NCBI GenBank assembly: GCA_031213475.1
Contig: JARUPZ010000003.1
Span: 9,691,266 to 9,755,265, forward strand
DNA length: 64,000 nucleotides
Direction of reading: 5' to 3'
From: Nereocystis luetkeana
Taxonomy: Eukaryota > Sar > Phaeophyceae > Laminariales > Laminariaceae
The first letter of the stretch is position 1. Each line of letters starts with the position of its first letter. Made by a program: the position numbers and the translations under genes. The notes beneath the pieces were generated by a model. That model was not told where the DNA came from, did not search any database, and saw nothing but the letters and a program-made list of their open reading frames with translations. Below, in pieces: positions 4,206-40,000 of this stretch.

Positions 4206-4378
4206 CTGTAGGAAGGGGATAAGACTAGCAAAAAGTTTCCATGTAATATACAGAAACAACGTAACGAGCACCCAAACGTCGGAGGTGTCTCTATTAGGAG
4301 TGGGTACGGTGCTCCCTCTCGAAAGGAATGCGTGGTCGAAGGTCAAATGACTATTAATAAGGGAAGTGAAAAATGAGT
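4206..4378 (+). mobile_element. LINE 3'-end fragment
   Basis: A second copy of the LINE tail directly follows the first: the codons for the last ~45 residues, stop, then a C-rich run. Compared with the first copy it carries an extra TATTAA inside ATGAC-TA-TTAA-TA-AGG (4352-4359). Confidence 0.8.
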
Positions 4379-4401
4379 ACGCGCCCCGCGCCCCCCACTC
4401 C

Positions 4402-4620
4402 CTACTCCCTACCCCCCCTCCATGTTCTCGCCTGGTCGAAGCAGAGATGTCGAGCCTCCGCCGTCGCCGCCGCCTGCCGCACAGCCGCCGTAAGCTTGCC
4501 TCCCTCCAAGCCCTTCAGCGACACCCGGTGCACCATGGCGGGGCGCGTTAGCGTCTTCGGAGACGACGTAGAGGTGCCCCCCATCCCCATCCCCCCCCCG
4601 GTGGAAACGCCGCTCAATCC
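4402..4620 (-). CDS. Candidate 3'-terminal exon of the BAR-domain gene
   Basis: A GC-rich open stretch on the minus strand encodes a helical-looking segment (VHRVSLKGLEGGKLTAAVRQ, then AAATAEARHLCFDQ) and ends in a stop. It lies downstream of the last confident exon of the BAR gene, and its composition resembles the exons. A possible acceptor (CCACAG) precedes it, but the phase does not join directly to the exon ending at 5535, so an exon may be missing between them. It could equally be chance GC-rich sequence. Confidence 0.3.
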   Translation of the reverse strand, partial: GLSGVSTGGGMGMGGTSTSSPKTLTRPAMVHRVSLKGLEGGKLTAAVRQAAATAEARHLCFDQARTWRGGRE

Positions 4621-4679
4621 TGTGGCTTTCCTTGTCACTTCTACTGTCTCCTGTTATCATGCACCCATGCATAAGTGGA

Positions 4680-5060
4680 AGCGCGGGGGGGGGGGGAGGG
4701 GGCCGGCGGGGGAGGGGCGGGGGGGTGGTCGGTTACAATATCTGCGGTTTTGTATGTATGTACGGAAAGCATTCATGGAGGGGGGGGGGGGGATCAGATA
4801 CGTTGCCTCCGGTTCTCATGCGCATGAATAGGGGGGCGCGGGGCGGGGGAGGGGATCGGCGGGAGAGAGGGGTCGGGGTAGGTTTATGTTATATGCTGTT
4901 TTGATGCATGCACGGAAGGCATGCATGGAAGGGGGGAGTCAGTTACGTCGTCTCCTGTTCGCATGGCTGCATACATAGAACGGGGAGTCGGGGTGGGGGC
5001 AGGGGGTTGGATGCGCCTCACTTTATCTGTGATGTGTCTTGTAAAACGCCTTCATGGAGG
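4680..5060. repeat. G-rich degenerate repeat
   Basis: Poly-G tracts alternate with short blocks containing ATGCATGGA and CACGGAAGGCATGCATGG-like strings in tandem. There is no coding support. Confidence 0.5.
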
Positions 5061-5061
5061 G

Positions 5062-5137
5062 CGGGGAGGGGGGGCGTACTCGTTTGCTGCTTGCTTTAGT
5101 CATGAACCCATTAACCACGAATCCCTTCCGAGACGGG
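5062..5137 (-). mobile_element. LINE 3'-end fragment
   Basis: The reverse complement of the LINE tail, abutting poly-G (poly-C on its own strand). It is joined through a poly-G tract to the poly(C)-ended repeat at 5138-5420. Confidence 0.7.
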
Positions 5138-5420
5138 CGGGGAGGGGGGGGGGGGGGGGGGTGATACTCGACAGCAGAGATGTACTCGATCTCGTGCATG
5201 GCCGTAGTCGTATGACCATAGACCCTGGCACCCCTACAACGCCGGGACGGAGCATGTCGGGTTTTCACCGACCAGACAGACATTGCTTGCACCAAGCGCG
5301 AAGCGCTGTGAGATGTCCAGCGAGTCGCTTGGGGGGTGAGCTGCAATCTACTAAGAATCGCTTGTGAGGTGGACTTGCATATGGATGACAGCTTCAATTT
5401 TATTTTCCGGTGTGTAGCCA
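5138..5420 (-). mobile_element. Poly(C)-ended repeat, 5'-truncated copy
   Basis: On the minus strand this is the 3' half of a family seen full length at 13145-13691, 14113-14653 and 16605-17150. It ends in a C tract (G tract at about 5141-5160 on the plus strand). It has no coding capacity. Confidence 0.75.
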
Positions 5421-5534
5421 TTGGGCGGTGGCGGTAAAGTGAAGCCCAGTGAGGTTAACTAAACAAAATGAAAGTACCGTGGGCAAAATTTTGGTAATAG
5501 TAAATAAAACGAGCGGGCGGGGGGGGGGGCTGAC

Positions 5535-15242
<9,708 letters not shown>

Positions 15243-15335
15243 CTAGTGTCGATGTTGTTGTTCCGTTTCGATTTCGATTTCGGTTTCGGTTTCGTTTTTT
15301 TTTTTTTAATATGTTCCGTTCCATTTATTAGGTGT

Positions 15336-15380
15336 GGTTTGGTTTGGTTTGGTTTGGTTTGGTTTGGTTTGGTTTGGTTT
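15336..15380. repeat. (GGTTT)n microsatellite
   Basis: Nine perfect 5-bp units in non-coding DNA. Confidence 0.95.
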
Positions 15381-15654
15381 GGATTGTGTTGTTTTTGGTT
15401 AGGTTTAGGAGGGACGGAGGCACGTAGGGAGGGAGCAAGGGAGGGAGCAAGGGAGGGAGGGAGGGGGGGGGGGTGGGAGGGAGGGAGGAACGGTGGGAGA
15501 GAGGCAGGATGGATATGCCACGTGAAAAAGAAAGCCTGAATGGAGTACGATGTAGCAGTGGCAGGTGTTTCATGCACTATCATGCATTTCAAGCTCTTTG
15601 GAGGCTTGGGGGCTGAGCAGGGATGACGACCGAATCACGTTAACCATAACTGCA

Positions 15655-16265
15655 GCCTCATCGACCATCTGGCAATGCTCTCGGGGCCCACCAACAACCT
15701 ATCAACGTTACGAGGGCTTACCAACCATTTACTGCATCAAAAATTCTCGGGGCCTATCAGCCATCAATCAAAACTATTTGGGCTTACCAACCATCCGTCA
15801 CTATCGTCGGGGGCTATCAGACATTAATCAAATATATATATATCGGGGCTTACCAACCATCTGTCAATACTGCCCGGGCGTATTTACGACCATCTATCAA
15901 TAACATCGGGTCACACGAACCAACCGTCAAAGGTATCGGGGCATACCAACCATCTGCCACTAGTGCCGGGGCTTATCTACCATCACCTATCCATCAAACT
16001 ATCATCCGTGTCGAGGTCTATCAACCATTTATCAATCCTATCAGGGAGCACCAACCATACACGCGTCAACGTTGCCCGGTCTCACCAGCCATCTCTCAGT
16101 ATTTTCAGGGCTTCCCAACCATCTGGCAATACTTCGGGGTCATCATTACAATGGGGGCTCACCAACCATCCGTCAATGAAATCCGGGCTTACCAAACATC
16201 TACACACCGTTACGGTCGGTGGCTTATCACCCACTTATCAATATCGGGGAGGCTGATTGACCATC
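15655..16265 (+). repeat. Tandem repeat, ~33-37 bp unit, about 17 copies
   Basis: Units contain CGGGGCTTACCAACCATC-like sequence with variable spacers. An apparent RGLPTI repeat peptide arises only because the unit is open in one frame. I see no start, splice or family support for a protein. Confidence 0.85.
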
Positions 16266-17150: not shown

Positions 17151-17254
17151 GGTTCAAATTTTCTCAGCTGACCGAACAAAACGTCATCGAATTGTACACC
17201 TTGCTTGGGTCGCCCCACGCCCAAACGCCTCCGAAAAAGGAAACCTTGCAGTAC

Positions 17255-17530
17255 CGCAAAGAGCCGTTGAGTTCGCACAGATGTGCGTGCGATCGTTTTG
17301 AAGCACCCGATTGTCCCAATAATGCCGAACAAACTACCCTCGGGTAAGAGTTGTTCGCAAAAAAAAAACTGGGCTGGTCGAGGGAGAGCCTTTTTTCCCG
17401 AAATTAAAGTAATGTTCGACATTAATTAGAAACCTTTCACCGTTGGGTAAGAGGGGAAACGAGGCGCTGCTGAAAAATAAAACCGATCGCAACGCTGCTG
17501 TGCGAACTCAACGGCTCTTCACGGTATAGG
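17255..17530. repeat. Inverted repeat with ~45-bp arms
   Basis: An arm at about 17255-17305 (AAGAGCCGTTGAGTTCGCAC) recurs inverted at about 17480-17525 (GTGCGAACTCAACGGCTCTT) around a ~180-bp loop. It is probably a TIR element; no second copy was seen. Confidence 0.6.
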
Positions 17531-18060: not shown

Positions 18061-18119
18061 TAAAGTGGGAAACGATGGTCCGTCTACAACAAGGTGTGAA
18101 AACTTTAAAACAAGTACTA

Positions 18120-18224
18120 TTAGGGGGGACCATAATAAAAAGAACAAAATATTGTTAGTAAAAATAGTGAAATACATAGGTTTTTGTGTGCACCGTAGGT
18201 TCTACTAAATATGGTCCCCCATAA
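18120..18224. mobile_element. 105-bp MITE, copy M4
   Basis: 105 bp between TA dinucleotides. The left TIR reads TTAGGGGGGACC. Confidence 0.85.
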
Positions 18225-18337
18225 TATCAGGTATGTATGTGTGAACATACACCTGGTACACGTCAGCCGTGACTTCGACCGATTGGGAAACTGAAGAGTT
18301 CCGGAGAACCCCCCCCCGACACACCAGGGACGCAGCA

Positions 18338-18850: not shown

Positions 18851-18910
18851 CGACTCGTACAATAATATCTTGCTGCGCGTACTTATCGAAGTACTGTAGT
18901 CCGACTACTA

Positions 18911-19015
18911 TCACGGGGGATCACATTAAATAGGACCTATGGTATGCTAAAAAAACTACATATTTTACTATTTTTACTCAAAATATTTGGTCCTATTTAC
19001 TATGGCCCCCCGTAA
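18911..19015. mobile_element. 105-bp MITE, copy M5
   Basis: 105 bp, left end TCACGGGGG, right end CCCCCCGTAA, TA on both sides. Confidence 0.85.
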
Positions 19016-19294
19016 TACCACTGCTTCTACTACTACCACCCCCATTCAAACCTTATCACACGGGTTGATAAGATAACCCCCCCCCCCCCCTGGGATGAAG
19101 CCAATTCCCTCTGAAACCAGGGGGGGAAGGAGGCAAAACAACGAAAACGGTGGTGCCTTTCGAGATATCTCGTCGAGAGCGTTTCATAGATATAGCAGAC
19201 GCATGCACTGCTCGGGCGTTTGCACGCCCCGCCCCCCGTTGTCCAAGAAAATCCGGGTTAAAGTTTTGTACGGGGGGGGGTGGGTTATCTCATC

Positions 19295-19695: not shown

Positions 19696-20135
19696 GTTCA
19701 CTGGTTCCCAGAAGCAAAGATGCCACATTCATATTTTGCGGGAGCGCGTCAAGGCTTCTACTGCCTTGTCACAACGACCTTGTGTTATACTATGGGGGCG
19801 TACTTGACTAGTTTCATGTCGAGTGTAGGGAGGCGGTTAGCCAAGAGGGGTCAAACCGCGCTCTCCTCTACGACGCTAATATTTGCCCGGCAGCCTCGCC
19901 AGCAGCCGGAAAATGAATCTGATCGGGTGGGCGGGAACATCACTGCAATCGTCACAAATCAGATTTTAAGGTTGCCGTTTCATGGAGGGTGAGTGCCCCA
20001 TACAGCCTTTTTTTTCACACGCTCCTTACTTTATACAGCGCCCCTCTTTCGAAGACAATGTGCGACAGTAAAAAACAACCCTCCACGTGACAATACAAAA
20101 CAGCAGCATAGGCCTACAAGAAAAGAAAGAGCCTA

Positions 20136-20222
20136 CTACGGGGGGCCATAGTAAATGGGATCAAATATTGTAAGCAAACATAGCAAAATAGAAAGGTTTT
20201 TGTGCATACCGTAGGTCCTACT
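20136..20222. mobile_element. 105-bp MITE, copy M6, 3'-truncated
   Basis: Matches the family up to CCGTAGGTCCTAC, then changes to unrelated sequence. Confidence 0.75.
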
Positions 20223-20827
20223 TTTAAGAACATTGGGCCCGCTTTTTTTTTCTCAAGGCGCTCAAAAAGCTTGGTTTCACAAACCGTGTTCAGCGACGAG
20301 CGCAACGCCAAATCCAATATCATACAGCAGTCAAACATCAAGGTTGAACAAGGGTGGCCTCGAAATAAGATTCTACAGGCCGGCTCAGATCAACCAAGTG
20401 TCTCTTCTTGGCGGACCCATACTGCATACAAACCTGACCAGGACTGCTCTAAGCCCCGTCCGAAGGATGACATGAATACCAAACGTACCTCACATTCCCG
20501 GTCAGAGAGGGATTGCGTCTCTCTTTTGGAAAAAATCAATGAATGATGACCCCCGTCTGTCCTTTACACACGAGTAAAAAGGCCTCCGTTCCTCCTTTAA
20601 TATAATAACGCCGTATATATATATATATATATTGATATTTCAACTTTCTGACGTGTCTATAGGCCTGGGGCGTGGTACCCCACGACGACACATTCGTCAC
20701 CGCTGTGGCATGTGGGATTCCGGGGGGGGGGGGAGGGGGGCGGGGGACGGTGATTTTTTTGTCTGATGTCGTAAGACAAACGAGCGAAAGCTGAGCGGGC
20801 GAGATTGCCCGCGGTCTCCCTTATACG

Positions 20828-21430: not shown

Positions 21431-21819
21431 TGGGGTTGAAACAAAGGTGTACCTACGAAGAAATGTCCCCATGCCACCTGGAAAAAGGCGAAAAGGAACC
21501 CCTATCTCCAGCGCAGCTTTCAACTGCTTGGGTTTGGCATCACCGCCCCGCCCCCCCCCCCCCCCGCCTCGCTTTTCCTCCTTCCCCCCCCCGCTACTCT
21601 ACCCCCCCCCCCCCCCCCCCCCCCTCCCCCCCCCACCCCCCCCCACACCCCCCCCACACCCCTCCACCCCATAACGGTGTTGTTATTACTGTTGCTATTG
21701 CTATTGCTGGTAGTGGTGGTCGTTGTTGTTTTTGCTGCTGCCTCTGGACGTAAATGTAAGGACCGTTCAGTAGTCATATTGACACCCCAACTGTCCTTGC
21801 ATTGCCGCCCAAAGCGCTA

Positions 21820-21952
21820 CTACGGGGAACCATAGTAAATAGGACCAAATATTGCTATTAGTAGTAAAAATAGCGAAATATATTGAAGTACCAGGTATAG
21901 GTTTTTGTGTGCACCGTCGTACGTAGGTCCTATTTACTATGGTCCCCCGTAA
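21820..21952. mobile_element. 105-bp MITE, copy M7, with four micro-insertions
   Basis: 133 bp. All 28 extra bases are explained by short insertions relative to the 105-bp copies: TA-TTAG-TA (21856-21863), TA-TTGAAG-TA (21881-21890), TA-CCAGG-TA (21889-21897) and 7 bases at about 21917-21923 around CGTACG. Confidence 0.9.
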
Positions 21953-22033
21953 TACTAAATATTCCGATCGAACGTCACAACGCGTCACACCTTGAAAACA
22001 CAGCTCGTCGATTCCAACGCCATGATCTATCAT

Positions 22034-22650: not shown

Positions 22651-22680
<30 letters not shown>

Positions 22681-22684
22681 TTAA

Positions 22685-22764
<80 letters not shown>

Positions 22765-22768
22765 TTAA

Positions 22769-22850
<82 letters not shown>
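22651..22850. repeat. (CTA)n microsatellite, 200 bp
   Basis: Pure except for two TTAA interruptions that read TATTAATA at 22679-22686 and 22763-22770. Confidence 0.95.
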
Positions 22851-22914: not shown

Positions 22915-23445
22915 CAGGGGACACGTCAAGAAGGCGAAACGTGCGCTGTCAAGGGTGTAGGGGTGACTGTCACACACTGAACCCTAGTAGTCTGGTGTCA
23001 GTAAAGGCATGTCAAGGCAAAGTTACTGTCCGTCAAGGGGTGAAAGTGTGGAGCAGTCGACACCCTTGACAGCGCACGTTTTGCGTTGCTTGACATGTTT
23101 CCTGACGTCAAAGAAAGGCAAAACGTAAAACGTGCGCTGTCAAGGTTAAGGGCTCAGGGCTGATTGTACTCTGTACGTAAAACCACCTACCTGGTGGTAA
23201 TTTGGCGACACAGAAGCGCCAGGAGACAGCGCTTTCACCCCTTGACAGACAACAACTTTGCCTTGGCGTGCCTTGACCGACACCAAACTACTAAATAGGT
23301 TTTCGATGCCAGGAGACATGTCAAGCAATGCAAAACGTGCGCTGTTCGAGATTCAAACCTACCTGGTAGTTTGGTGTCAGTTAAGCCATGTGAAGGCAAT
23401 GTTGCTTGCTGTCTGTCAAGGGCTGGACTTGCTGTCTCCCGACAT
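22915..23445. repeat. Degenerate TGTCAAGG-rich repeat array
   Basis: Both orientations of AAACGTGCGCTGTCAAGG and TTGACAGCGCACGTTTTGC occur several times, with GGTGTCAGT(A/T)AAGGCATGT between them. Confidence 0.7.
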
Positions 23446-24411: not shown

Positions 24412-25440
24412 TTTTTTTCTGTTCACTTCTACTTTCCAGCCAAACTCGTGGGAGGTTTTACCCTCAACGAGCTTCTGGACTAGAGATGGCACCCGGATTC
24501 AAAAATCGGAACCGAGACCAGTACCGCCTTCGGTGGGATTTGACCAGTACCGTCCCGGGTTCCCGCGGTACTGGGTATCCCGGGTACCCGGGTTCCCGGG
24601 TTCCCGGGTACCCGGGTTCCCGGGTTCCCGGGTACCCGGGTTCCCGGGTACCCGGGGTTACATGTACATTTTTGTCCACTCTTGTGTTTGAGCGGCGTGA
24701 CCGGTCTTCAGGCGGGGTGGTGAGGCGGAAGGTGGGAGGTGGGAGGACAAGCCTTCAGGTCGTCTCTCTCGATGAATAAAAATGAGAAAGAGAGGAGGCT
24801 GTGCGTATTCTCGGTGCAATCGAGGAGGTGAGGCGTGGGGAGGTGAAATACAAGTAATCATACAATCAAAGTCAACAAGTAGAGTTAAAAAAACTACCAG
24901 GTATCAATCTAATTTACCCTTATTTCGCTCGTGAATTCAACTCCATCAGGAAAATCCTTCGAATATAATTGTTTGCATCCACCAAACAAGCCCTGCGAGA
25001 TAAGCCCACACCCAGAAACAGCGAGCATATATATATATACATAATAAGCAGAGGAAGTAGGCTACAGCAGCCTCTGTCGGTTGCTCCATGAAGTGGGCAG
25101 CTTCCGCTGGTAGCTGGTAGGGGTCTCGCGTGTATGTGTATGGGTGTTGTGTGAAGGTAGGTAGGGTATGCTGTGCGCTGTGCGCTGTCTATCGGGGGCT
25201 CCGTGGAGCGTAACTAACGGGTACCCGGGTTCCCGGGAACCCGGGTACCCGGCATACCCAGTGCCGCGGGTAGTAAAAATGGAACCGGGACGATACCGGT
25301 ACCGACGGTTCCGACGGTTCCGGGTACCCGCCTCCGGGTACCCGGTTCCCACGAATCCGGGTGCCATCTCTATTCTGGACAAACCATGGTCACAGGTGTC
25401 TACCCTTCTCCCCCCCGGTGGAGACGAAACGCTCGGGGCT
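24412..25440 (-). mobile_element. SINE family 2, copy C, split by a hAT-like element
   Basis: The SINE 3' part (24412-24480, with a T-run on the plus strand) and its inner part (25373-25440) are separated by the element at 24481-25372. It is truncated at its 5' end. Confidence 0.75.
24481..25372. mobile_element. hAT-like non-autonomous foldback element
   Basis: The TIRs begin TAGAGATGGCACCCGGATTC and are precisely inverted at the right end. The 8-bp target duplication TTCTGGAC occurs at 24473-24480 and 25373-25380. The 8-bp TSD and TAGAGATGGCA-type end fit the hAT superfamily. Subterminal GGGTTCCCGGGTACCC repeats lie in both arms. There is no transposase. Confidence 0.9.
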
Positions 25441-25782
25441 TAGACTAGACTCAGATATGGGTTCCTGTACAATAGCTCCGTGAGTAAAAGGGCCAACTCC
25501 TAGGGCTCGGCACTGGCTGATTCAGCCACCAGCGATTGAACTCTCGTCAGAATCGATCAGAATATTGGATTGCAGCAGTATATTGCTGTCTCTCCTCTCT
25601 CCTCCCGAAACGCAATTGGTGGGTTTCCGTAGTATAACATGGCGTGTTTCTTGGGCGTACGTGCGATAAAAAGTACTGGCGAATGTACTGGCCAGGTCAA
25701 TCAGTGGATCACCACTACCAGTACATTGCTACTGCCAGTACATACTGCTGTGCCAGTGCCCAGGCCTATTTTAAGTCCAGTA

Positions 25783-25887
25783 TTACGGGGGCCCATAGTA
25801 AATAGGACCAAATATTGTCAGAAAAGATATCGAAATATATATGTTTTTGTATGGACCGTAGGTTCTATTTAATATGGTCCCCGGTAA
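25783..25887. mobile_element. 105-bp MITE, copy M8
   Basis: 105 bp between TA dinucleotides, starting TTACGGGGGCCCATAG. Confidence 0.9.
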
Positions 25888-25914
25888 TAGTAAACACACG
25901 ATAGACGCCTGTAA

Positions 25915-26569: not shown

Positions 26570-27360
26570 TATCATACATAGCCTGCGCACGTGGCGTATA
26601 ACGTCAATTGTTTTTGTTCGGAGTTGGGATGTTCGGATGTTTGGATGTTTGAATGCACGCACGAACAGTTTAGCAGTCGGAGAGTGCCTGTTGTTGTAGA
26701 TAGGACCTTTTGAACCCCTTCGAGCCTTTTGAGCCTTTTGAGCCTTTTGAGCCTTTGAGTTGTTGTTGAAGAATGGCGCACCAGGGATGTTTTTGTTGTA
26801 CCAGGTATTAATACCAGGTACCAGTTATGTATTGATAGTTAATACCATGGTATTAATAGTAGCCTACTACTGCAGTCGACGGGTAGAAAGAACGGTTTCA
26901 TGTGAAGAACACACACACGTACAGCAGTAGTAGTTTACCAGTTATTACCCTGTGTTTTTATTGATGAAATACCTGGAATGCGAGTACGTGTAGGGTTATC
27001 AGCTTTTCCATCTTCACCGATGGTGCTTGTGCAGAGTGCAGAGCACGGGACGGCACCCCGCGCCCACGCAGCAACATGTTTTAGTTTTCGTTTGAAGACT
27101 TCGAGCTAAGTACGGTTACAACTTCGGGACAAGAAATAAAACAGAAGGGCGAAGAGTTCTGCGCTACCGGTTACTATCAATATTAATAATACATACCAGG
27201 TACCGGTTAAATATATTAAAGAAAGTGAATGTATGTAGAATGGTCCATGGAGGTTCACGCTCAGCAGTTTGAAAGTCGAGTTTATGCTATTAATACTATT
27301 TGACCAACGACTTATTGTAACTGGACATGAGGTCCAGCTTTCGGTGCGATGTTTGCTGGA
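26570..27360. other. AT-rich spacer with dense TACCAGGTA motifs
   Basis: Contains several TACCAGGTA, TATTAATA and CAGCAGTA strings (26797-26880, 27180-27210). There is no gene. Confidence 0.5.
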
Positions 27361-28610
27361 CGTGGCCTCACCTTGCTCGCCCCTCCCGACCCTGCCAGGG
27401 ACGGCCTCGGCCGGCTCGTACTGCGTCTGGGGGGCGAGTCCTGTCGTGGAGTTCCAAAAAGTTGGGTTCGAATCCCCCTATGGCTCAATTTGTTTTTGTC
27501 GCGTTGTATCGTATCGTACCCTGGTACCAGGTATGATTTAGGCTGTCGTCAGTACACTATTATACGAACGTTTCTTATCTATAGTATTAAGAGTGCTGTT
27601 GTTGCCGATGTTTTACGAATAGGTGCCAGGAAACAACGACAGCCTCAAGTAGACCCATGAAGGCGAAGGAACCAGACAAGAACCATACTACATGAGGGTA
27701 ATATTCGAAACGTTCGAGTAGGCTTTTCGCGTTGCTTCGTGGTAACTCTCTCTCTCTGTTTTCTCTTTTTTCTTCCCCAATTGCTGGAAGGCAACATTTG
27801 TTGCTGGTTTGATGAACCTGACATCGTGCCGGTGTTTTCTTTCTCGCCACTCGAACACGATGAATTGTAGATGTACCCCGTGGGAGTGCTATAAGTACTG
27901 CTATCGCATTTACAGCCTCGACTTGCCAACATCCTTGACCAATGCGGGCGTCAGCCCTCCTTGTACACATGTATGAAACTGTGTCATGTTGCACACATGA
28001 TGCATTATGTCACAGCAGTTTTGGTGGCTCTCGGCAGGAAGGCATTTTGCAGAGGGGCGCTACGTATAAAACAATAGCGGGGCTTGTACAAGGCGAAAGA
28101 ACAAGGCGGCCAAAATCGGCTGTCACATCTAAAACTGCAAATAGGGCAGTCGGCCCTGTTCAGGGAGGACACCGACCGACTCCCGACGCAGCTTTGGCCT
28201 CGCTGGGGCTCGAAGTACGTTGGGCATGTGCGTGCGTGGACGCAGCCGAGAAACTGGGATCTCCCTCGTCACGGAGACTGAGATTATCGACGTGTTGGTG
28301 GACCTGGTTACCACCACGGGGTTGGCTCCAAATGGGGCCGACCCTAATCCTATCCCTTTGGGGGGCTCAAAATCGGCACGGGCGACGGTCGTGCGTTCGG
28401 CTCCGCCACGTGTGTCGGTGTCGTTTGCCAAAGAAATCCGCCCGGCCCAAAGGCCAGCCCCCACCAATCACACAGGCAGGGGTGTTGCACGAGTTCAGGC
28501 ACAAGTTGGTGTTGGATTCAGGGCTTCTCTGCACTTGCTCTCCGGGCAGCTCCTATGGTTGCCCTAAAGTCGCCAGCTTCAGCAGTAGGTCCTACAGCTA
28601 GTTGCAGCGG
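27360..28610. other. GC-richer unassigned segment
   Basis: A 219-codon plus-strand ORF (27942-28601) is the longest here, but it has no recognisable family and is matched by ORFs in other frames. A B-box-like GGGTTCGAATCCCCC at about 27467-27481 hints at a pol III-derived remnant. Confidence 0.3.
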
Positions 28611-30049
28611 CACCAACAATTTTGACTGTTTGGGTTTCATTGTATATGGAAGGCTTATTTGCTACCGGGTGCGCATTTGCCCGTAAGAGAGAGCTGAGAG
28701 CTCTACCGTAAATCATGGCGCATCCAAAACCCATCGCCATGGACGGTGCCTGTGCCGATGCCGTGTGGATAAAGACTAGTGTGTGCGTTTATTATACAGC
28801 GTAACGTATTTTGTATACACATGTATACGACTACTTGAGCCGAATAGCACTAGCCGGCTGGTCAACTACAGCAGTAAGTAAGTGAGTTGGCTGTCGTCCG
28901 CCAGCCAATTCATAACCTGCCGGGAAGTCCAGCCAAGTCACGGCCCTAACATTTGGGCTACACCGAAAATGTGAGCTTGCGTTGTGGCTCTACGACCTCC
29001 TGCAACATTGGCATGGCCACATGGCTAGCCGACAGGTCTCGGCACGCTGGTGTGCGCGAGAGCGTCCATCAGGCAGCCACAACACTCGGCGTGGCACGTT
29101 GCTAGTCATGCCGCACTGGGTGTGCTTTTCGATCCGATGAATAGCGGGGGTGTATCTTGAACATCCACTGATTATTTCGGTATTTACCCATAAGGGCGTC
29201 ATATACAGCAGTATTCGCCAAACGTAAGACTTATGTCCGTACCCCGATATCGTTGACTACTCGCACAATATCTAAATACCAAATACTGCTGCACAGCTAC
29301 TTTTACCCAAACACTTGCTTGCAGCCGCCACCACACACCGTAGCAGAGCACGAGGGGTCCTTGAACAGCAGCGTAGGTTGGGGGCCCACGATGTGTGTTC
29401 GCGGGGTCAGTTTGTCCACGGTGCCCCACTACATGCAGTACACACCTGGTGCGTTCTCACTAGGTCTACCAACCAGGACATTGATTAGCGCGCAGCATTT
29501 GGGTCGGAATCGAGGCTTTGCGTAACAGGCCCCGGAAGGCGTGTTGTTCGGGCCGCGCAAGCTCTTACCATGGTATCATTTTCGCCGGAGGCTAGAAAAA
29601 GTTAGTTGGCAACTTATATCGCCGTAGGCGAAAAAAAAAGAATTTATGAGTCTAGAGGCACTGTGTCAAGTGACCTTCGGGCACATATCAACGCATATCG
29701 GCATATCGCATTTTTTGGCCTCCGGCGGCCCTCTGGGGGTCATCCGGGGGGGCTCCGGGGGTCGCTGCGGGGGGCTAACACGCCTGCCACTCGTGTTGCG
29801 CTGCGAGCAACATGCCTTCGGGCTCCTGGTGCGTTTCGCGCAACTGACGCCGGAACCCTACTTAATGTCCCGCTACGAACATCCCTACTACAGGGGCCCA
29901 ATGAGTTCACGGCCCCTACGTTCGCCTACGGGCCCCTCTCTCCTAAGGGTTCATGGGATTCACGGACCCTATTCCATCCGATCACGGACTCCTGTACCAG
30001 TACACCCCTCTTGGAATGCCTTGAAATCACGGGGTCCCCTATCATACCA
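28610..30049. other. No gene seen
   Basis: Mixed intergenic DNA. 29700-30045 has degenerate CGGGCCCCT-type repetition. Open frames here show no family resemblance. Confidence 0.4.
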
Positions 30050-30154
30050 TTACGGGGGACCATAGTTAACAGGACCTGTGGTATATATAAAAACCTATAT
30101 ATTCAATCATTTTTACTCACAATATTTGGTCCTATTAACTAAAGTCTCCCGTAA
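30050..30154. mobile_element. 105-bp MITE, copy M9
   Basis: Exactly 105 bp. The left flank is CA rather than TA, a point change. Confidence 0.9.
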
Positions 30155-30635
30155 TAAGAAGAGCCTGCTTGACAACGGAACCCCATTTGACCACTGACCC
30201 CTGCGTATATACCGGTAGTAGGTACCTGTAATGTATGGCAGGGGGGTTCGTGGAGGTTTACCAACCCCTATCGATCGGGGTCCATTAGAATGACAGTCCC
30301 TGCAGGGGCTCGTTCCCCCCGGGCCCCTGTTCCAGTAGAATCCTATTCTACCTGGCTACCTGGTAGGTTGGTATGGGGGTTCGTGAATCCAGTGGACCCT
30401 TCGTAGGGGTTCGTAACCCTGCATCCCCCCATCTTTCCCCCGGCAAACATGCGGCAGCGTATCGGATATCGGACTATCGGGTATCGGATGCTTACCGGAA
30501 ATCCGGACACTTTACTGTCCCATTCGAGACTACCCGATACGGTTTCGGTTTCTTTTTCTGAGCTTCCCGTTCGGTGTCCACCAGTCCTATACTCTATACC
30601 AGGTACTGTATTAGAAATCCGTTTGGGACTTCAAG

Positions 30636-30800
30636 GGGAGGGGGGGGGTACTCGATATCATGCGTGGCCGTAGTCGTGTACACGTAGACCCTTGCATCCC
30701 TATAATGCCAGAACGGAGCACGTCGGGTTTTCACAAACCAGGCAGACATTGCTTGCACCAAGCGCGATGCGTCGTGAGCCCGTGAGGTAAAGAAGGGGGG
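30636..30800 (-). mobile_element. Poly(C)-ended repeat, truncated copy
   Basis: The 3' 130 bp of the family, with a G tract on the plus strand at 30640-30648 and another at 30795-30808. Confidence 0.7.
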
Positions 30801-31039
30801 GGGGGGGGCGAAGCGTCGAAAAAAACACTGGTCACATGGACCAGCGGCCCGGGTCGCTCGAGGGAGAAGATACTATTAACAATAGCATACAAGCTGATCT
30901 CCGACACGCGCGCAACGCGACACTACTGGTGTACATTGCTTTAAGCCGTACATGCTGCGGCGCGCTCCCATTTAGGCGGCTAATGAGACCGCACCTGGCA
31001 TAGTTTACAGCAGTAGGTCGCGAGGCTGCACCTGGACCC

Positions 31040-31260
31040 CGTAAGGGTTCATGTTAGGCTGTTCACGGGTCATGACCACGAATCATGACCCGACCCGCGG
31101 ATCGGGTCAGGAGGTCTCCAAAAACTCACGGTTCGGGTCGGGTCGGGTCATGAGCCATGAGGTATCCGAAATCTTGCGGGTCGGGTCGAGTCGGGTCGGG
31201 CCTGGTTAGGTGACCCAATCCAACTCGACCCGCGAGTTTTGACCCGACCCGTGGACACCG
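31040..31260. repeat. GGGTC/GACCC simple repeat with inverted halves
   Basis: Runs of GGGTCGGGTC and CATGACCCGACCC in opposite orientations. Confidence 0.7.
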
Positions 31261-31269
31261 CCGTAGGTT

Positions 31270-33998
31270 AGTGGTTTAATTCGAAACTTTAAAAATAATA
31301 CCTGGTACATCGTACGTATCACGTATCAGGTACCTGGTGTAGTGGGCAAACCCGTCAACTCATCAACCAACTACAGGTACCAACAACAAGTAAGAGCCAT
31401 CGACGCTATGATATGATTCATACGATGCGATACGAAAACAGCGAAGAGAAATGATTCTTCTCGTTTCTGTGAGACGTAGTTTGTAGCACCTTGGTACCTG
31501 ACTGCCTGATACCTGTGGTAACTGCTACCAGTACAGCAGTAGTACCTGGCACATACCAGGTACATGGATACCAGGGTCAAGGATTGGCTTGTGCTCGCTT
31601 GAGGGTACATACCTGTACTCCTACCTCGTGCCACGCCGGACGGAAATGTAAGGAGCGTTTACACAGCAGTAGTCTTCGTATGTATACCCAAAATGCTCCT
31701 TATGTTTCCGTACAGACTGGTACATACGGCTGTACGGTAGGAGTGAGGAGTGAGGCAGGCGCGAGGCACATGGAGAGTAATTGGCATGCTATCGCCGTTA
31801 TAATCAACGGGAATTGGTGTCGGGGAGGGGTTGTGGGGGGCGGGGCGGCAGCAGCAGTTGTTGCTGTGTTCGAGGTGCTGCTCAGTAGTACGATCCCGCA
31901 GAGAACAAAGCTTTTCGGTCTGATTCGTACGAATTGGAGGCCGAAACCAATTGCGAAGTGAAAAGTGACGTACTCATGTCTATGTGAAACATCATGCCGG
32001 GATCTCCCGAAGGGTGCAGGTCTGGTCTTTATTTCATACGTTTCAGCCGTTTTTTAGCTCGGCTTGCCAACATGACCGAGCAGAACAGAACACCACGATC
32101 TCTTTGTCCCGCCCTCTTGCATCCCGACCCAAGATGCACCCGTCCTCCATCCACCACCCACAGCCACTAACACAGGCAAATACACTCCATGCATCCATAC
32201 CATGCGGTACGCTCATCGCCAGTCGAGGCAAAATAAAATCACGAAAATCAATCAAACTCAATCGTCGTCATTTTCAAGTCGTCCAGTTTGGTCCTCGCAA
32301 TGCAGCTTGTTGATATTTTTACTTGTGAAAAAATTAAGATTGAGACTACTGGCGGAAAAAGAAAGGAAACAAAACACAACCAAGGTTTGCTGTATATCGT
32401 ACAGAGCAGCACACACACACGTGCGCTGGAGGCGAACCAAACAAACAGGCCGCCTGTCCGCTGGATGAACCAAGACTGCTGTCGATATCGATGCTCGATG
32501 TCGCCCGTGTTACATACCTGGTACTCGTTTTTTATCTTCGTGATGCAATCTTTTTTTTGCACCGTGGATGATGTGAGAGGGACACCCTTCTCCGAAGGGA
32601 GGGGAGAGCAGGAGGCGACTCTTCTCAAGAGTACCACGCTCGGGTGCCGGGTGGGTTACTCTACTGATGGAAAGCTGGTTCTCACCTCAGTAATGGTGGG
32701 AACGGGGAGCGACCCCGGCTGTGGGGTACCTGACCCATCCATAGCCAATAGGCTGTCTGCTCCTGTCCCGTCTCCTGTCCGTCTCTCCCCTGGAAGTAAC
32801 ACCTAAAAACGCAAAGCAAGGCACTCTGAGCCTTTTCCTCCTCCCTCCTCCCGGCGGGCGCCCCTGTCCCCTGCTCTCCCCAGTTCTCCACACGCACAGG
32901 CAGTGGCCACGACAACTCTAGAAGTTCTCTCCACCGCGGTTCTCCTTCTCACTTAGTCGTCTCCCAGCTCCAAGCCCTCTCAATCACGAAGTCTCGCGTT
33001 CCTTGCGAAAGCAACACGAAGTCGGGACAAGCATCCTCTGGCGGTCAAACTATGTCTTTCTGCTGCCGTCTGAAGATGAGTCTACGAAACACATAAACAG
33101 AGAAATTAAAAAACACGTATTTCATTGGCTGATAAAGCCAGTCTTGTGGATCTATCATTGGCCAGTTCCTCCCGAGGGCTATATTGCGCCGCTCGTGCCC
33201 ACAGGCAGCACGGGGCGTTGCTTTGCCTTGCGCTTTTGCTCGATCTCAGTCAGTGCACGCGCGTGTCTGCCTCTGAAGCTAGCGGGTGTGTGTGAGGAGA
33301 GAGAGCCAAATAATTTTGGGGGAGTGGTTTGCTTCGATCCCCCCGCCCCTCCGATCTCGCGGTGTGAAGTTGATCGGAGGGATTGGTCGAACGCCGCTGC
33401 AAAACGCAGCCCTACACTTTTTAGCCTTTGAATTTTTCACTGAGTGCCTTGTGGGCAGATTGTGGGCAGATCGAGAGGGGGTGGTGGCCTGTCTTTGCTC
33501 AAAGGCCTGACTTTGACCCAGCGAAAGGGAGAGGGAGAGCGAGAGAGAGAGGGCGAAAGGGATTGAAGAATCTCGTTTGCCCTGTTTTCACGTTGAGGAA
33601 GAGCAAACGCAAACAGCTTCCCCCCCGCGTTTCCCCACTACTTGGCGGTGCAGGCAGCTTGGTATATTGAGGCGGAAGGCAGAAGCATCATCAGTAGCAG
33701 CAGCAGCACAGAGCAACGAGCGACCAATCGCTGGCGGGAAAACACGCTGTCTGCTGAGGCAGAAGCCCCCTCCAGTTCGAGGAAGGCGGGGAAGGGAGAG
33801 CGATCTCGGGGGGAAAGGTGGAGGGCACGCGGAGGCAGAGGGAGCGAACGGCCTGCCCAGGGCTAACGAGTCCCACGACCTCTCCTGGCGCCAAACAAGC
33901 TATCGACCTGCCGGACAGTCAGTAAATAAAGGCAGGGGAGGTGGGGATTCCCGGAACGGAGCAGTAGCAGGAAGAGGAGGAGGGAGAGGAGCAGCAGC
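31270..33998. other. Intergenic DNA and presumed RPB1 promoter/5' UTR
   Basis: 31290-31620 holds several TACCTGGTA motifs. No homologous gene is seen. The last few hundred bases before 33999 are purine-rich (AGGAGGAGGGAGAGG) and probably contain the RPB1 5' UTR; no TATA box or initiator can be defended. Confidence 0.4.
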
Positions 33999-34082
33999 AT
34001 GCCGTCTCAGTTCAGCTTTTCGTCGGCGCGGCTGTGCCGCGTCCAGAAGCTGCAATTCGGGATTCTCAGTCCCGATGAAGTG
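33999..34082 (+). CDS. RPB1: RPB1 exon 1 (start)
   Basis: ATG plus 27 codons, ending SPDEV before donor GTGAGA. The ATG is chosen because [13 protein letters not shown] aligns with the first conserved RPB1 block about 15 residues in. Confidence 0.92.
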
Positions 34083-37000
34083 GTGAGAAGAGTAGTTGAA
34101 AGCGTTTTCGACTGCTTGTTGCAGACTACCTGGTAGATTGTACTGGCACCGCCGTATACATTCAGCTGTCAGAGGAAGGAAGACACCCCCTCCCGTGCGT
34201 TGAGTATGGTCTCTGTCTGATCTACTTGCCATGATTGAAGTTTGTACCCTCGGCTATATATGACGACGAAGTTTTCACTAAGCAGTTGGTCGTTTAGCGG
34301 TATTACCGGTATAGATGAGCACTCTAATCTTGCTTTTGCTGCTGCTGCTGTTGTACGTGTCGCAGCAGTGTACATGGTACCTGCTACCTGGTATAGCATA
34401 GCAGCTGTGTATCATGGTATATACGAATCCTCGTATAGCAGTATTACTTGCAGTCAGGACGGTGGGCCTACCGCGTCTTCAATGAATTAACGTTCACTGT
34501 TGTGAAGAGCATGTATTGCTGCTATTAATATTATTATTAGTACTCATATAATATTAATCCAAGGATCATACCCACAGGCGCTCTACTCGCAGCCTGTGCG
34601 TGGACAGAAAACCTGATACGTTGCCAAGTACCAGGTAAGATGGCAGCAGCACAGGTGTCAAATTGCTGCTGCTGCGCTGACTTGGACTATGAACACGTAT
34701 AGAAGTCTTTTAAGCCAGTTGTGTTGGTCGTGCCTTACCTACGTACTGCGGTATCGCGGTCTCTGTTCTCTGCCCGAATTCTCTCTCTTCTGGGCGCCGA
34801 CATGCATGACGCATAAGCCATGGTATAATAAGCTGCGTGCCCTTGTCAGGAGGCACCCGAGGTTTGGCAGGCCGCTGCTTCTCTCTTGCGTTCCTGCCTC
34901 CCTGTGTCCTGCGTGCAAAACTTGGGACAAACGGAGGCGTCTTTGCTTCTCCCACGCTGCAATTGGGTCGGGGCGTTTACGTAGTCGGGTAGCATGGACT
35001 TTGTTTCCAGCCCACCTGGTATGATACGTAGGAGTACCTGGTCCCAACAGCACTATATACGAGCACCCAGCAGAAGGCTTTGCACTTTTCAGCAGGTACG
35101 TCGAGCAACAGCAGTACTAAAGAAGGCTCTACCACGAGCAGCAGCAATATTATCATGCTATTCATAGTACGAAGTGCTCCCGCGCAGGCAGTTTTTCCTG
35201 GCACAGGAGTAGAGTTAGAGTGTCGGCATATTATTTACTGCGTAGAAGACGAGGTATCCTCGCGGGCCCGGAAGAAACGCCGAAAAGCGCAGCAGCAAGT
35301 TTGTGGCAAAAGGCCGTTAGCAGTAACAGTAGCTGCGGAGGTCAAAGCCGTAGGTGTAGGTCAACAGCAGCTACAATAGTAGATCAGCGGCCGCAACAAC
35401 AGTAGGCCAGCCCGAACAGCATTAGGTCAGCAGCATTAGCAGCAGCAGTGTAGAACAAGTTTCAGAATCAACAGCTGTCAGTTAGCAGGAGCAGTAGCAG
35501 TAGCAGCAGCAGCAGGTTAGCAACAACAAAGTGGTAGCAGCAACAATAGTCAGCACCTCAGCAGGAGGTCGGGAGCAACAGCAATTGCAGTATCGGTAGT
35601 TCAGTAGCAGCTGCAATGTCGTAGGTCGGCAGCAACAGCAGCGGGTTAGCAGCGGAGCAGCAGGTCGACAGCTACAGCAGTGGCAGCAATAGCAGTAGGC
35701 CAGCACAAGTAGGGGTTGTTCAACAGCAGCAGCAGCAGCAGCAGCGGTAGCAGTAACACTAGTGGCAGCTGCTGTAAAGGTTGGTCAGCGTAAGGGTGAA
35801 TAATTACTTAGAGCACGGTAGCAGCAGTAGGTACGCGGAAAGAGGGGAGGCTAGGCGCCACCCCCGCTTCACCCCCCCGCCTTTGGAGGGTATCACGAGG
35901 TGAATCACGATGACCGCTTTTCTGTGGAGGGCGCGAACCTATTGGTTCACTGCGAGAACGCTCGCTGACTCCTCCCGCCCAACCTCGATCAACCCCCCAA
36001 CGCCCACGTCCTCCCATCCCAACCTCCAATAACTTCCCTCCCTACCCCCTCCCGCCCCGGCCTCCATCAACAACCCCACCCCCCAACACCCTACCCTCCG
36101 TCTCGATCTAACCCCCCTCCCCTACTCCCCGCCCCCCCCCCTCCCCTCGACTGTTGGCGTGTTTTCCCATTTTCTTGCGAGCAGCGTCAGATGTCGGTGC
36201 TCCAGAAGGTGAAGGTCAACGAAGTCGACATTCCGGAGGGTGTGACAAAATACGACCTCTACAAGGTGGGAAAAGTAGAGCAGGAGAGAAGGGGGGGGGG
36301 GAGGGGGGGGGGGGGGGGGGGGAGGGGAGGGGAGGCGGGGGGGTACTCACTTGTTGCTTAGTCATGTGACCATTCCGAGGCGGAGCACCGTACCTACTCC
36401 CAACGCTAATAAGAGACACCTCCAACACCTCCAACATTTGGGAGTCTATAATGGTTTTGTCCCATGTGTGTGGAGGGGGGGTTAGGGGAAGGGGGGGAGG
36501 GGAGGGGAGGAGAGTGTAGTTTTGGAGGAGGGTGAGGGAGTTGGACGCGGGGAGGGGAGAGCATTGGGGAAACGAACTATCTGAGAAGCGCGCTGAATCT
36601 CTTTTCTCCGTCTTGCTCTGCTCTTCTTTTTTCGTGCTGCGCGCGCCGAACGTCGGTAGCATTTTTCACGGGGGAAACATAGCGAGTTAATGGCTAGCTT
36701 TGTGAGTACTACTGCTGTTATACCGCTGTAGAACTTTGACGCTTCATTGGTGTGTTTTGTTTAAGCTCGGGGCCTCTTGTGTAGTGGAACATACTACTGC
36801 CGTGCTTCTGAATGGAGCACGAATATATTTGCCAGGTACCAGCTATTCATTGTGCGCTGCAGTATACTACCTATTATAGAAAGAATATGCAGGAAGGATT
36901 AGGACAAGGATTTGGTCGAAGTGGACTGGCGGAGCGCCGTCGATCGGTTGTTGTGCTGTGAGTCGTGGATACATTGACTTGGATAGTTTCGGTTCGGTGG

Positions 37001-40000
37001 TACCGGTGCCGGTTCGTTGCGTGTATGTGGCGGAACTTCCTACCCGCTAAGTACGCGGCTCGCTACTTGCTACCTGGTATCTTGCTATGGCTGGGTGGAT
37101 CGATGGGTGGCTGGCTCGCCTCGTATGATTGGCAGCAGTCACCACTTCAACAGCAGTAGTAAGGAACTTGAAGAACAAACATGCAAGGAAACGGGACATG
37201 AAAATGAAACGGACAAAAGTGTTTTCAAGTGCTGCTTCTAAGTCTCAAGAGCCTTATTGAAGAACAAGAATAAAACGTGAACGAGAGTGGAGAACGGAGA
37301 ACACCGTACTGGTAATGACGGTGGGAGGTGGAAATAATAAACGCTTGTGAGAATGTGCTAGTAAACGTATTGTTGAAACTTGAAAAAAAATGAGAGGACT
37401 ACCAGGTATCTGGTAAAAGCTGTGCGTACTTCTATTAATAGCAGAGCGCTGCCCTCCCCCCCCCCCCCCCACCTAGAAAAGTAACAACGAGGGGAAACAA
37501 ACGGGAGGGCGCATCATCGCATCCCAACCCAGCCCATACCATGCCCAGCAATTCCCATATTTTTCCATACCACAGTTGTACCATCGCATCCGATCGATAC
37601 CCAACCCCGTCCTATCCCATTCCACCATCTACCGTCTCCTCTCATGTTATCCGATCCCACCCCACTTCCTCCCACCCCATCTTGTCCCATCCATCCCATC
37701 CCATCCCATCCCATCCCATCCCATCCCATCCCATCCCATCCCATCCCATCCCATCCCATCCCATCCCATCCCATCCCATCCCATCCCACCCCACCCCATC
37801 CCATCCCACCCCATCCCACCCCATCTCATGAACCGAGCAGGAGGGTAGTGCGGTGTACGGCGGGGCCAATGACCCGCGAATGGGGACGCTTGACTTCAAC
37901 ACGCGATGTCGCACATGCGACTGCACTTATACGGGGATCGGAGGTAACCAGGTCAACGACTGCCCAGGCCACTTCGGACACATGGAGGTGGGTGGTGTGA
38001 GGGTTGGGGTGAGCAGTTGCGGGGCGTGCGGGGGGGATTTGGAAGGCTTGTGAGGGTGGTGGGGGGGGGGATGGGGAGGGTGGTGGGCGTTGGGGGGGGG
38101 GGCTGGATCGGTCCTACTGTAGCGCTGTGTGTAGGACGCTGTTGTTGTATTTGCTGATGTTGCTGCTGTAGTTGGACTTCGGGCACGCGCGCAGGATCGG
38201 ATGCGGGTGGGTGGGTGGGTGGGTGGGAAGTCTGTAGGCAGGGAGGGGGGGATGTTGTCGTGAGTAGGTGCGGAAGCTGGAATGGGGTTGTGGTGTGCGA
38301 CGTAGACGTTGCACTTGATGATGCCTGTGTCACTTTGTAGTTGTTGATGTTCCTCCCATCGTTGTTTGTCGCATTTGCTGTTGCTGTTGCTGGACTGTTG
38401 TTGCGATGGTGTTGGTGATGCGTTCGTGTCCTTGCCTGCCGTCATTGTGTTCCGAACGTCCGCGCGCCCTCTGCATGTGTTCTCTATTATTACGGGGGAC
38501 CATAGTTAATAGGACCTGTGGTATACATAAAAACCTACCAGGTATATATTTAACCATTTCTACTAACAATATTTGGTCCTATTAACTATGGCCCCCCGTA
38601 TTAGTTGTTCCTTATGTAAAGGCGCGCGTCTCCTGAAAAATGCCGCAGTCGATGGGTAACGTAAACTAAAAATCTGCTTCGTCTTTGCATGGAGCTCCAC
38701 TTTTGATACCAGTGTTTCACGGCGGTGTTTTTTCTTCTATTTTTTTTCGTGGGAGTTATCGACCAGAAAACAGTAGTTGTTGTACCACTCTGACTGGAAG
38801 CATACAAGAACCGTATGGGTTGCTTATTAATGTGGCATTACATAGTTTCCACCGGAAGCCATTCATCATCACATAGCACGGTCCGTGGTCGCACGAAGAC
38901 CGAAGACAAAATGTAGACGTAGTGCGGTAGAAAGCGATACATAAAAGGAGGTAATGCGTCGACCTTGACTGGCCGACCGAACGACCGCCGACCGCCATGC
39001 CTCATATTATAATCATGGCGCTACCTGCCGCCCCCACCCCGCAGCCCCCTCCAACCCCCGACCGCTGTGCGTGATCTTATTGTCACGGCCCTACGCCTGC
39101 CCCCCCCAACTGCTCCGTCTCGGAAGGGATGCGTGGTCAATGGTCGATTGGTTAAGGCGTGCAAACAAATGAGTACGCCCCCCCGCCCCTCCCTCCACCC
39201 TTCCTTTATAACTCTTGCGCAGCTGGCACGCCCAGTGTACCATGTGGGTTTCCTGGACGTGACGCTGAAGGTGCTGAGGAGCGTCTGCTTCCACTGCTCG
39301 CGCTTGAGGCTCGACAAGGCCGACCTGAAGTACAAGAGAGCCCTCTTGATTAAGAACCCGAAGGCGAGCGGGAGAGAGGGTTGGGGAGAGCGAGGGAGTT
39401 GAGGGAGGGGGAGGGAGGGAGGGGGATGTGCGCCCAGGAGAGGGGCGGGGGACGGGGGGGGGAGTGTACTCGATAGGGAGAGATGTGCTCATGTCATGCA
39501 TGGCCGTCGGGGGGGGGGGGGGGGGGTTGGGCTCTCGTTTCCTTGATTTTTTTTTTTTATTGGTTCATTTGGTTTTGTGATTCTGTTGTTTTTTATTTTG
39601 TGTTTCTTGACTGTCTCCTGTTTCCTTGTTTCCTCTTTTTCCCCTCAGAGGTTTATTCTTGTCCTCTTTTTCAACGTCGCACCGCCGCGAGACCTAAAAG
39701 AAGGGTTTGTAGAGTTTTTGGAAAGAAACCAGTGCAACCATCGACCCCTGTTCGCCCTCAGCCGTTTTGATCCAAGGCCCTTGACCTCCGCCCGCCGCAC
39801 CGCGTTGCTCCGCCCACAGACGAGGCTGAACTACATCCACGAGCAGTGCCGGAACTCCAAGAAGTGCGTGTTCGGAACGGGGGACCTGGAGGCCGGGATG
39901 GACCTCGATGGCGAAGGCGGTGGCGGGATGGGGGGGGGGGGGGGAGGACGGGAACGCTTCGGGTTGCGGTGGGCTGCTGGTGAGGATGGGCTAAAGGGGA

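Follow-up and report, generated by a model that had tools for sequence, protein, structure and literature searches.

Why do copies of mutually unrelated repeats in a 64,000-nucleotide stretch of the Nereocystis luetkeana genome (contig JARUPZ010000003.1; hereafter the window, meaning the whole stretch that was analysed) differ by a few bases lodged between two TA dinucleotides? These micro-insertions are very probably the excision scars of TA-specific cut-and-paste transposons moved by at least two transposases, with the spectrum of strings to be expected from a 3-nt 3' overhang. One type of scar, TA-TTAA-TA, is predicted by the ends of a 105-bp miniature inverted-repeat transposable element (MITE), called M1, that is present in the window. 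The other main type, TA-CC(A/T)GG-TA, would come from a second family.

Short insertions between two TAs

The first-pass annotation had cited nine such strings, and all nine lie exactly where it placed them. Its statement that sister copies lack the inserts stands for six of the nine (4352, 21856, 38536, 13220, 14343 and 14448), which repeat-family alignments show as a clean N(k)TA insert beside a single TA in families unrelated to one another. For the three others it has to be qualified, the inserts being compound or the alignments weak. The nine strings are the following:

4352..4359, no strand, putative TATTAATA scar in a copy of the tail of a long interspersed nuclear element (LINE); clean 6-bp insertion, three sisters keep one TA
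8286..8293, no strand, TATTAATA in a TTAA-MITE copy; fits an insertion, 9-bp alignment gap
8849..8856, no strand, TATTAATA in a repeat unit that has diverged; the units align weakly, at 68.6% identity
13220..13226, + strand, putative TACTGTA scar in a poly(C) repeat; clean 5-bp insertion versus two sisters
14343..14350, + strand, TACTTGTA in a poly(C) repeat; clean 6-bp insertion versus two sisters
14448..14455, no strand, putative TATTAATA scar in a poly(C) repeat; clean 6-bp insertion versus three sisters
21856..21863, + strand, putative TATTAGTA scar within an M1 copy; insert absent from the other MITE copies in the alignment
21889..21897, + strand, TACCAGGTA within an M1 copy; belongs to a compound insert of 15 bp
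38536..38544, + strand, putative TACCAGGTA scar within an M1 copy; clean 7-bp insertion

Sister MITE copies of the last site, for example the one at 51696, read AAAACC-TA-TATATTT, and the 15-bp compound insert at 21889 reads TA-TTGAAG-TA-CCAGG-TA. At 8286 the division of the 9-bp gap into TTAATA plus 3 bp is our own placement, and at 8849 no array was reported by Tandem Repeats Finder. The micro-insertions are thus confirmed, and the phenomenon is larger than first reported.

Counts of the inserted words extend the observation to the whole window. It should be stressed that all statistics come from this single stretch and that the scar words beyond those cited earlier were picked after inspecting it. 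TACCWGGTA occurs 31 times against a shuffle mean of 0.60 (maximum 3), TATTAATA 15 times against 0.48 (maximum 3) and TACTGTA 22 times against 5.7 (maximum 14), none of these counts being reached by any of 100 shuffles. Once low-complexity words are filtered out, no 9-mer of those occurring 8 times or more is as over-represented in the window as TACCAGGTA. Furthermore, 31 of the 152 CCWGG words stand between TA and TA, while the next commonest flank pair accounts for 3. Outside the two TAs, the flanks of TACCWGGTA have no common sequence and show a mild bias only. One-mismatch neighbours are also in excess, as expected if point mutation decays scars: 40 against 14.3 for TACCWGGTA and 44 against 10.9 for TATTAATA, a figure to which TA-rich simple sequence may contribute.

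The dependence on TA was assessed with inserts flanked by identical dinucleotides of all 16 kinds, counting palindromic N4 (those starting with TA or AT excluded) and quasi-palindromic N5. At TA flanks, palindromic inserts number 32 against 9.1 expected for N4 and 45 against 9.1 for N5. At the 15 other dinucleotides, N4 counts go from 4 against 10.8 (AG, CT) up to 27 against 17.4 (CC/GG) and 19 against 11.3 (GC), and N5 counts are 9-17 for 8.8-17.2 expected. Short palindromic inserts are thus strongly in excess at TA and at none of the 15 other flanking dinucleotides.

The scars are also nested. In the set made of TACCWGGTA, TATTAATA, TACCATGGTA, TACCCTGGTA, TATTAGTA and TACTAGTA, 53 words in total, six pairs of neighbouring words share a TA, against 0.81 expected under random sequential insertion among the TAs of the window (P 0.0002, 0.02% of trials reaching six). 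The compound scars are:

26799..26820, + strand, TACCAGG-TATTAA-TACCAGG-TA
26843..26858, + strand, TACCATGG-TATTAA-TA
27517..27533, + strand, TACCCTGG-TACCAGG-TA
57158..57179, + strand, TATTAA-TACCAGG-TACCAGG-TA

Two CC-type scars lie within MITE copies, at 38536 and, as part of a compound, at 21889. This suggests that the CC transposon was active later than the insertion of those MITEs.

The M1 element and preferences at insertion flanks

M1 has the form TA-TTACGGGGGACCATAG...-TA (TA-TTAC...GTAA-TA), is 105 bp long and is found in 13 copies:

2825..2933, + strand, TA at both ends
7179..7287, - strand, TA at both ends
10322..10430, - strand, TA at both ends
18118..18226, - strand, TA at both ends
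18909..19017, + strand, TA at both ends
20133..20243, - strand, one end disrupted, the other CTACGG adjoining TA
21818..21954, - strand, one TT and one CT end, with nested TATTAGTA and TACCAGGTA scars
25781..25889, - strand, TA at both ends
30045..30157, + strand, TA at the right end only
38488..38603, + strand, with a TACCAGGTA scar
45652..45760, - strand, one TT and one CT end, TA at both ends
48184..48294, + strand, no flanking TA
51698..51806, + strand, TA at both ends, terminal bases matched 24/24

TA is present at both ends in 10 of the 13 copies, the arrangement expected of a 2-bp TA target-site duplication. The terminal inverted repeats (TIRs) adjoin this TA, with 24 of 24 bases matched at 51698/51806 and 23 of 24 at 45652/45760. 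In three copies one end carries CT in place of TT, which would yield TTAG, and TATTAGTA, the word of TTAG type, is found twice in the window. As TA-N(2-6)-TA strings of terminal bases, the TATTAATA words have the form of an excision footprint of M1, matching both its ends and its flank preference. Stowaway elements end in CTCCCTCCGT. The M1 ends, TTACGGGGGACC, differ from these, and TTACGGGGGACCATAG does not place M1 in that group. In the MITE copy at 21818-21954, a 7-bp insertion at 21915, CGTCGTA, is not of TA type and resembles ACG-TACG-ACG on the opposite strand.

The bases that flank the scars distinguish the two main types. A matrix was made from the 8 bases outside TA at 22 MITE ends and scored against all non-microsatellite TAs with five position sets; the microsatellite filter had removed 4 of the 15 TATTAATA sites and 1 of the 31 CCWGG sites before flanks were counted. 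The MITE insertion flanks have the consensus YTAC (pyrimidine-T-A-C) preceding TA. On TATTAATA flanks, this matrix gives an area under the receiver operating characteristic curve (AUC) of 0.76-0.84 over the five sets. With the four TA-adjacent bases, the AUC is 0.84 on 18 flanks, those touching another scar being excluded (0 of 20,000 resamples as high), and 0.79 on 22 flanks when scar-adjoining ones are kept. On CCWGG flanks, the same matrix gives 0.48-0.56, and 0.50 with four bases (54 flanks, P 0.48). In the same way, a matrix made from TATTAATA flanks gives 0.72-0.79 on MITE flanks and 0.41-0.48 on CCWGG flanks.

The CCWGG flanks have a bias of their own: T precedes TA in 2 of 60 against a background of 20%, and positions -3 and -7 are A/T-rich. 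Their leave-one-out AUC is 0.76, as against 0.77 for MITE flanks. The flanks of the CCATGG and CCCTGG variants agree with the CCWGG matrix (P 0.022) but not with that of the MITE (P 0.51). Two distinct insertion preferences are the best reading of these flanks, and since the CCWGG sites have a preference of their own, a second transposase probably left them.

Excision model, alternatives and known systems

In the proposed mechanism, a transposon would insert at TA, duplicate it and leave by a short staggered cut, after which end joining would retain both TAs and a few terminal bases. A first transposase would move M1 and leave TA-TTAA-TA, or TTAG or CTAG when the end TT is replaced by CT. A second one, belonging to a family not seen in the window and acting on ends that are presumably CCA, or possibly CCT, would leave TA-CC(A/T)GG-TA. 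With 3-nt 3' overhangs, TTA ends could anneal across two bases to give TTAA; CCA ends could anneal across one mismatched A.A base to give CCWGG, or be joined without overlap to give CCATGG; CAG ends could anneal across three bases, the central mismatch giving CAG or CTG. We infer excision itself, the length of the overhang, the Tc1/mariner-like superfamily and the identity of the CC donor; for the overhang it is the spectrum of scars that points to three nucleotides.

This spectrum was examined by applying the overhang rule to 64 end triplets with 0-3 overlap bases, that is 256 combinations, the TATA/TATATA microsatellite sets being put aside. CCA or CCT with a one-base overlap comes first (CCWGG, 31 against 0.63), followed by TTA with two (TTAA, 15 against 0.28). 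Lower in the list are sets that hold TTAA among others, CGT without overlap (7 against 0.09) and GGA/GGT (7 against 0.24); we read the CGT and GGA/GGT sets as reflecting TACG repeats and a word internal to the MITE. CAG/CTG with a three-base overlap (22 against 8.7) comes below these. CCATGG is found at 2 sites and its counterpart CCTAGG is absent, which favours CCA over CCT. The first-pass annotation had traced one of its strings to a two-base cut inside M1. Of TTAA and CCAGG, such a cut accounts for the first alone; both are obtained with a 3-nt overhang. Its broader interpretation of the strings as footprints is supported by the word excess, the nesting and the TTAA string that M1 predicts together with a common flank preference; no donor of CCAGG was found in the window.

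Several observations weigh against excision as the source of these strings. The main scar has no visible donor: a search of the window for TA-flanked inverted-repeat elements with CCA or CCT ends, which required agreement either of the first 14 bases with 2 mismatches or fewer within 5 kb or of 18 in 24 bases within 6 kb, yielded nothing except scar words paired with one another. No pair of occupied and excised alleles was seen in the window, and 14 translated stretches, covering part of it, gave no Pfam match and hence no transposase. TACTTGTA is not clearly above chance (5 against 1.7, reached by 4 of 100 shuffles) and its 8 flanks fit neither matrix, the TACTGTA flanks weakly fit both (P 0.0004 and 0.002), and TAC microsatellites contain or adjoin three of the TATTAATA words. 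The separation of flanks is less clean in reverse, the CCWGG matrix giving MITE flanks an AUC of 0.54-0.72 depending on positions.

The indel survey belongs with these points. Indels of 4-12 bp, listed mechanically after aligning the window with itself (44 raw, 35 distinct clusters), include 6 clusters that duplicate TA against 0.38 expected, the highest count of any dinucleotide; one of the six, at 9019, is a tandem hexamer copy, which leaves 5. Other dinucleotides are raised too (GT 4 against 0.43, CG 3 against 0.19, TG 3 against 0.31, TT 3 against 0.55), CG equalling TA by ratio, and several of the non-TA events are plain tandem duplications. The earlier wording that insertions always sit at TA has thus to be abandoned. 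The survey missed or misplaced the cited cases 8286, 8849 and 14343, which were judged from multiple alignments. Taken alone it is neither TA-specific nor decisive, so the case for TA rests on the word counts and on the palindromic-insert, nesting and flank tests.

Among the alternatives, the one that survives best keeps excision and changes the transposon: the scars would come from TA elements outside Tc1/mariner, of another superfamily with a 2-bp TA duplication, and the overhang model and family name would be wrong. We consider it unlikely, although no transposase appeared in the stretches scanned and the M1 ends TTACGGGGG are not known to resemble any Tc1/mariner end. The duplication of TA around a few terminal bases is just what mariner, Stowaway and Sleeping Beauty are described as producing, and Mariner-Tc1 elements are reported at almost 12,000 copies in Ectocarpus, mostly non-autonomous (PMC12477816).

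A functional or compositional origin, in which CCWGG and TTAA between TAs would be protein-binding palindromes or by-products of microsatellites, is decidedly improbable. Both words are near-palindromic, and the microsatellite TATTAATA words as well as the excess of TA-CGTACG-TA and TA-CAGCAG-TA are in keeping with it. However, it does not account for sister copies of unrelated repeats that lack exactly N(k)TA, nor for an excess of palindromic inserts that is strong at TA flanks only. The two different insertion-site preferences are likewise not expected from a binding motif, or from random repair.

It is very improbable that the strings result from abortive or micro-transposition, that is from a transposase pasting tiny end fragments into TA instead of removing the whole element. 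This would suit the lack of an occupied allele and the surplus of scars over visible donors (31 CCWGG words, against no donor identified within the window), but excision followed by end joining is the documented source of such strings, and the CCATGG, CCWGG and CCCTGG variants resemble alternative joins of two ends. Finally, error-prone repair favouring TA without any transposon, through untemplated or templated end-joining inserts, is hardly credible: the short-duplication indels at GT, CG, TG and TT would fit it, whereas identical strings recur at unrelated sites ~30 to 50 times more often than by chance and M1 predicts one string plus its flank preference.

Excision by TA-specific transposons, the reading that we retain, has well-described counterparts. 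In Sleeping Beauty and mariner systems, the TA target is duplicated and a few terminal bases remain between the TAs; the transposases are described as nicking three nucleotides inside the element, the joined 3-nt 3' overhangs making the footprint (PMC7827188), which is CAG for Sleeping Beauty (PMC8151067). The window differs in that its scars come in bulk from a single natural sequence, with TTAA and CCWGG among them and with nesting, and in that the donor of the CC type is not seen there. Stowaway MITEs of Triticeae and rice are likewise short and TA-flanked, with footprints of 1-4 TIR bases within the TA duplication (PMC1925063, PMC4561436). As described, the Triticeae footprints concern single gene loci compared between species, unlike the identical scars that are spread here over 64 kb. 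The Mariner-Tc1 MITEs of Ectocarpus, for example TcMar-N1_Ec32, are also brown-algal with many non-autonomous copies (PMC12477816); they are likened here by description and not by sequence, and the main text of that paper contains neither "footprint" nor "excision".

Other reports concern insertion-to-excision ratios of rice Mariner elements, given as 2.6 and 2.8 to 1 (PMC4423477), the many flanking mutations carried by rice excision sites (PMC5023962) and the non-canonical footprints of Hsmar2 (PMC3770610). In a kelp paper (PMC12116465), "mariner" occurs solely in a programme title. A whole-word search of the literature for three scar strings gave no paper, and none of those listed by further searches was recognisable as a bulk survey of scars in a brown alga.

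The mechanism is already known for Tc1/mariner-like elements; what sets the window apart is the density of the scars (15 words of TTAA type for 13 copies of the MITE, and 31 of CC type whose donor is not seen there), the nesting and the missing donor. The chances seem to us evenly balanced that TA-transposon scars form the dominant dispersed sequence class of this alga, with ~53 words per 64 kb, some stacked at re-used TAs and most derived from a largely vanished family. Excision footprints are usually met locus by locus. If scars do form such a class, they and the target preference of their flanks would reveal the ends and target sites of lost transposons, as a fossil record independent of surviving copies. 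If the top 9-mer is a scar whose donor is not seen in the window, scars may outlast transposons and bear witness to earlier activity overlooked by repeat annotation. The target-preference test offers a simple means of assigning scars to donors, and nested scars suggest one route to TA-rich short tandem sequences. Any assembled kelp genome, or a comparison of strains, would allow a direct test of the idea.

Further sites and neighbouring repeats

Besides the strings already given, the window contains the following scar words, those of the TATTAATA and TACCWGGTA types coming from the word counts:

7610..7617, no strand, TACTAGTA, as expected from a MITE with CT at both ends; a TAC microsatellite is nearby
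7620..7627, no strand, TATTAATA beside a TAC microsatellite
8971..8979, - strand, TACCTGGTA in one of two sister repeat units, matched by TACCAGGTA at 9175 in the other
9175..9183, + strand, TACCAGGTA, counterpart of 8971
10437..10445, - strand, TACCWGGTA
22679..22686, no strand, TATTAATA within a TAC microsatellite
22763..22770, no strand, TATTAATA within a TAC microsatellite
23360..23368, - strand, TACCWGGTA
24895..24903, + strand, TACCWGGTA
27181..27188, no strand, TATTAATA
27194..27202, + strand, TACCWGGTA
27288..27295, no strand, TATTAATA
29566..29575, no strand, TACCATGGTA, scar variant
30357..30365, - strand, TACCWGGTA
30597..30605, + strand, TACCWGGTA
31299..31307, - strand, TACCWGGTA
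31554..31562, + strand, TACCWGGTA
32515..32523, - strand, TACCWGGTA
34127..34135, - strand, TACCWGGTA
34385..34393, - strand, TACCWGGTA
34523..34530, no strand, TATTAATA
34535..34542, + strand, TATTAGTA, scar variant
34629..34637, + strand, TACCWGGTA
37071..37079, - strand, TACCWGGTA
37400..37408, + strand, TACCWGGTA
37433..37440, no strand, TATTAATA
41564..41571, no strand, TATTAATA
48031..48039, + strand, TACCWGGTA
49925..49933, + strand, TACCWGGTA
53932..53940, - strand, TACCWGGTA
54747..54755, - strand, TACCWGGTA
55823..55831, + strand, TACCWGGTA
55846..55854, - strand, TACCWGGTA
57052..57060, + strand, TACCWGGTA
57139..57148, + strand, TACCCTGGTA, scar variant
57306..57314, - strand, TACCWGGTA

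From 57315 to 64000 there are none of the 53 scar words. At 22679-22686 and 22763-22770, TATTAATA breaks a long TAC microsatellite twice, in a way that makes a scar and a microsatellite mutation indistinguishable. The words at 8971-8979 (TACCTGGTA) and 9175-9183 (TACCAGGTA) occupy corresponding positions of their units and represent the same scar with a different centre base, reflecting either a point change or two resolutions of the central mismatch. TA-CAGCAG-TA is found 8 times against 0.13 expected, and TA-CGTACG-TA words are similarly in excess. The words ACAGCAGTA and TACTGCTGT are scattered across the window at 16 sites (12858, 17592, 22889, 23972, 25743, 26921, 28868, 29205, 31007, 31533, 31663, 35108, 36710, 37150, 45486 and 46953).

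Various elements were considered as donors and rejected. The sole plausible CC-starting element is a single 273-bp TA-flanked element at 17252-17526, with ~26-bp inverted repeats starting CCG; the CCGG scar that it predicts is weak (3 sites against ~1 expected). The pair 17836/18805, in which CAG adjoins TA, was examined as a CTG donor, but the repeat continues past that boundary. A pair of ~813-bp repeats (1516-2328 and 11590-12413, 84% identical), with short inverted ends TGCCAATGGGAA and, in just one of the copies, TA on either side, predicts TGCA scars, but TATGCATA occurs 0 times. PiggyBac excision is described as leaving no footprint; piggyBac was therefore rejected as a source of TTAA, since 6 bp are added to a single TA at 4352 and 14448. 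A second MITE family, piggyBac-like in form with ends resembling TTAACCC...GGGTTAA, has seven copies:

7960-8065, TTAA-MITE copy
8155-8262, TTAA-MITE copy
8265-8392, TTAA-MITE copy
9447-9550, TTAA-MITE copy
10790-10898, TTAA-MITE copy
52070-52172, TTAA-MITE copy
53231-53334, TTAA-MITE copy

Rfam gave no match at gathering score. Scans of viral and genome contigs, which may omit entries from the genome that the window belongs to, gave no related DNA apart from 17 viral-contig stretches that match a short compound scar pattern and were taken as chance.

An open reading frame (ORF) at 58108-61026 on the + strand, whose relatives point to a brown alga and probably a kelp as the source of the window, has no Pfam match itself, and its residues 500-960 match 26 protein relatives among 8000 candidates scored. 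PF10193, presumably the TEL2 domain, is found in 6 of these 26. A eukprot entry, Undpi1, which we take to be Undaria, is 71% identical to the query segment over 28% of the query. The six relatives that have an NCBI organism name come from Pylaiella, Scytosiphon, Ectocarpus, Hapterophycus, Ascophyllum and Discosporangium, all brown algae.

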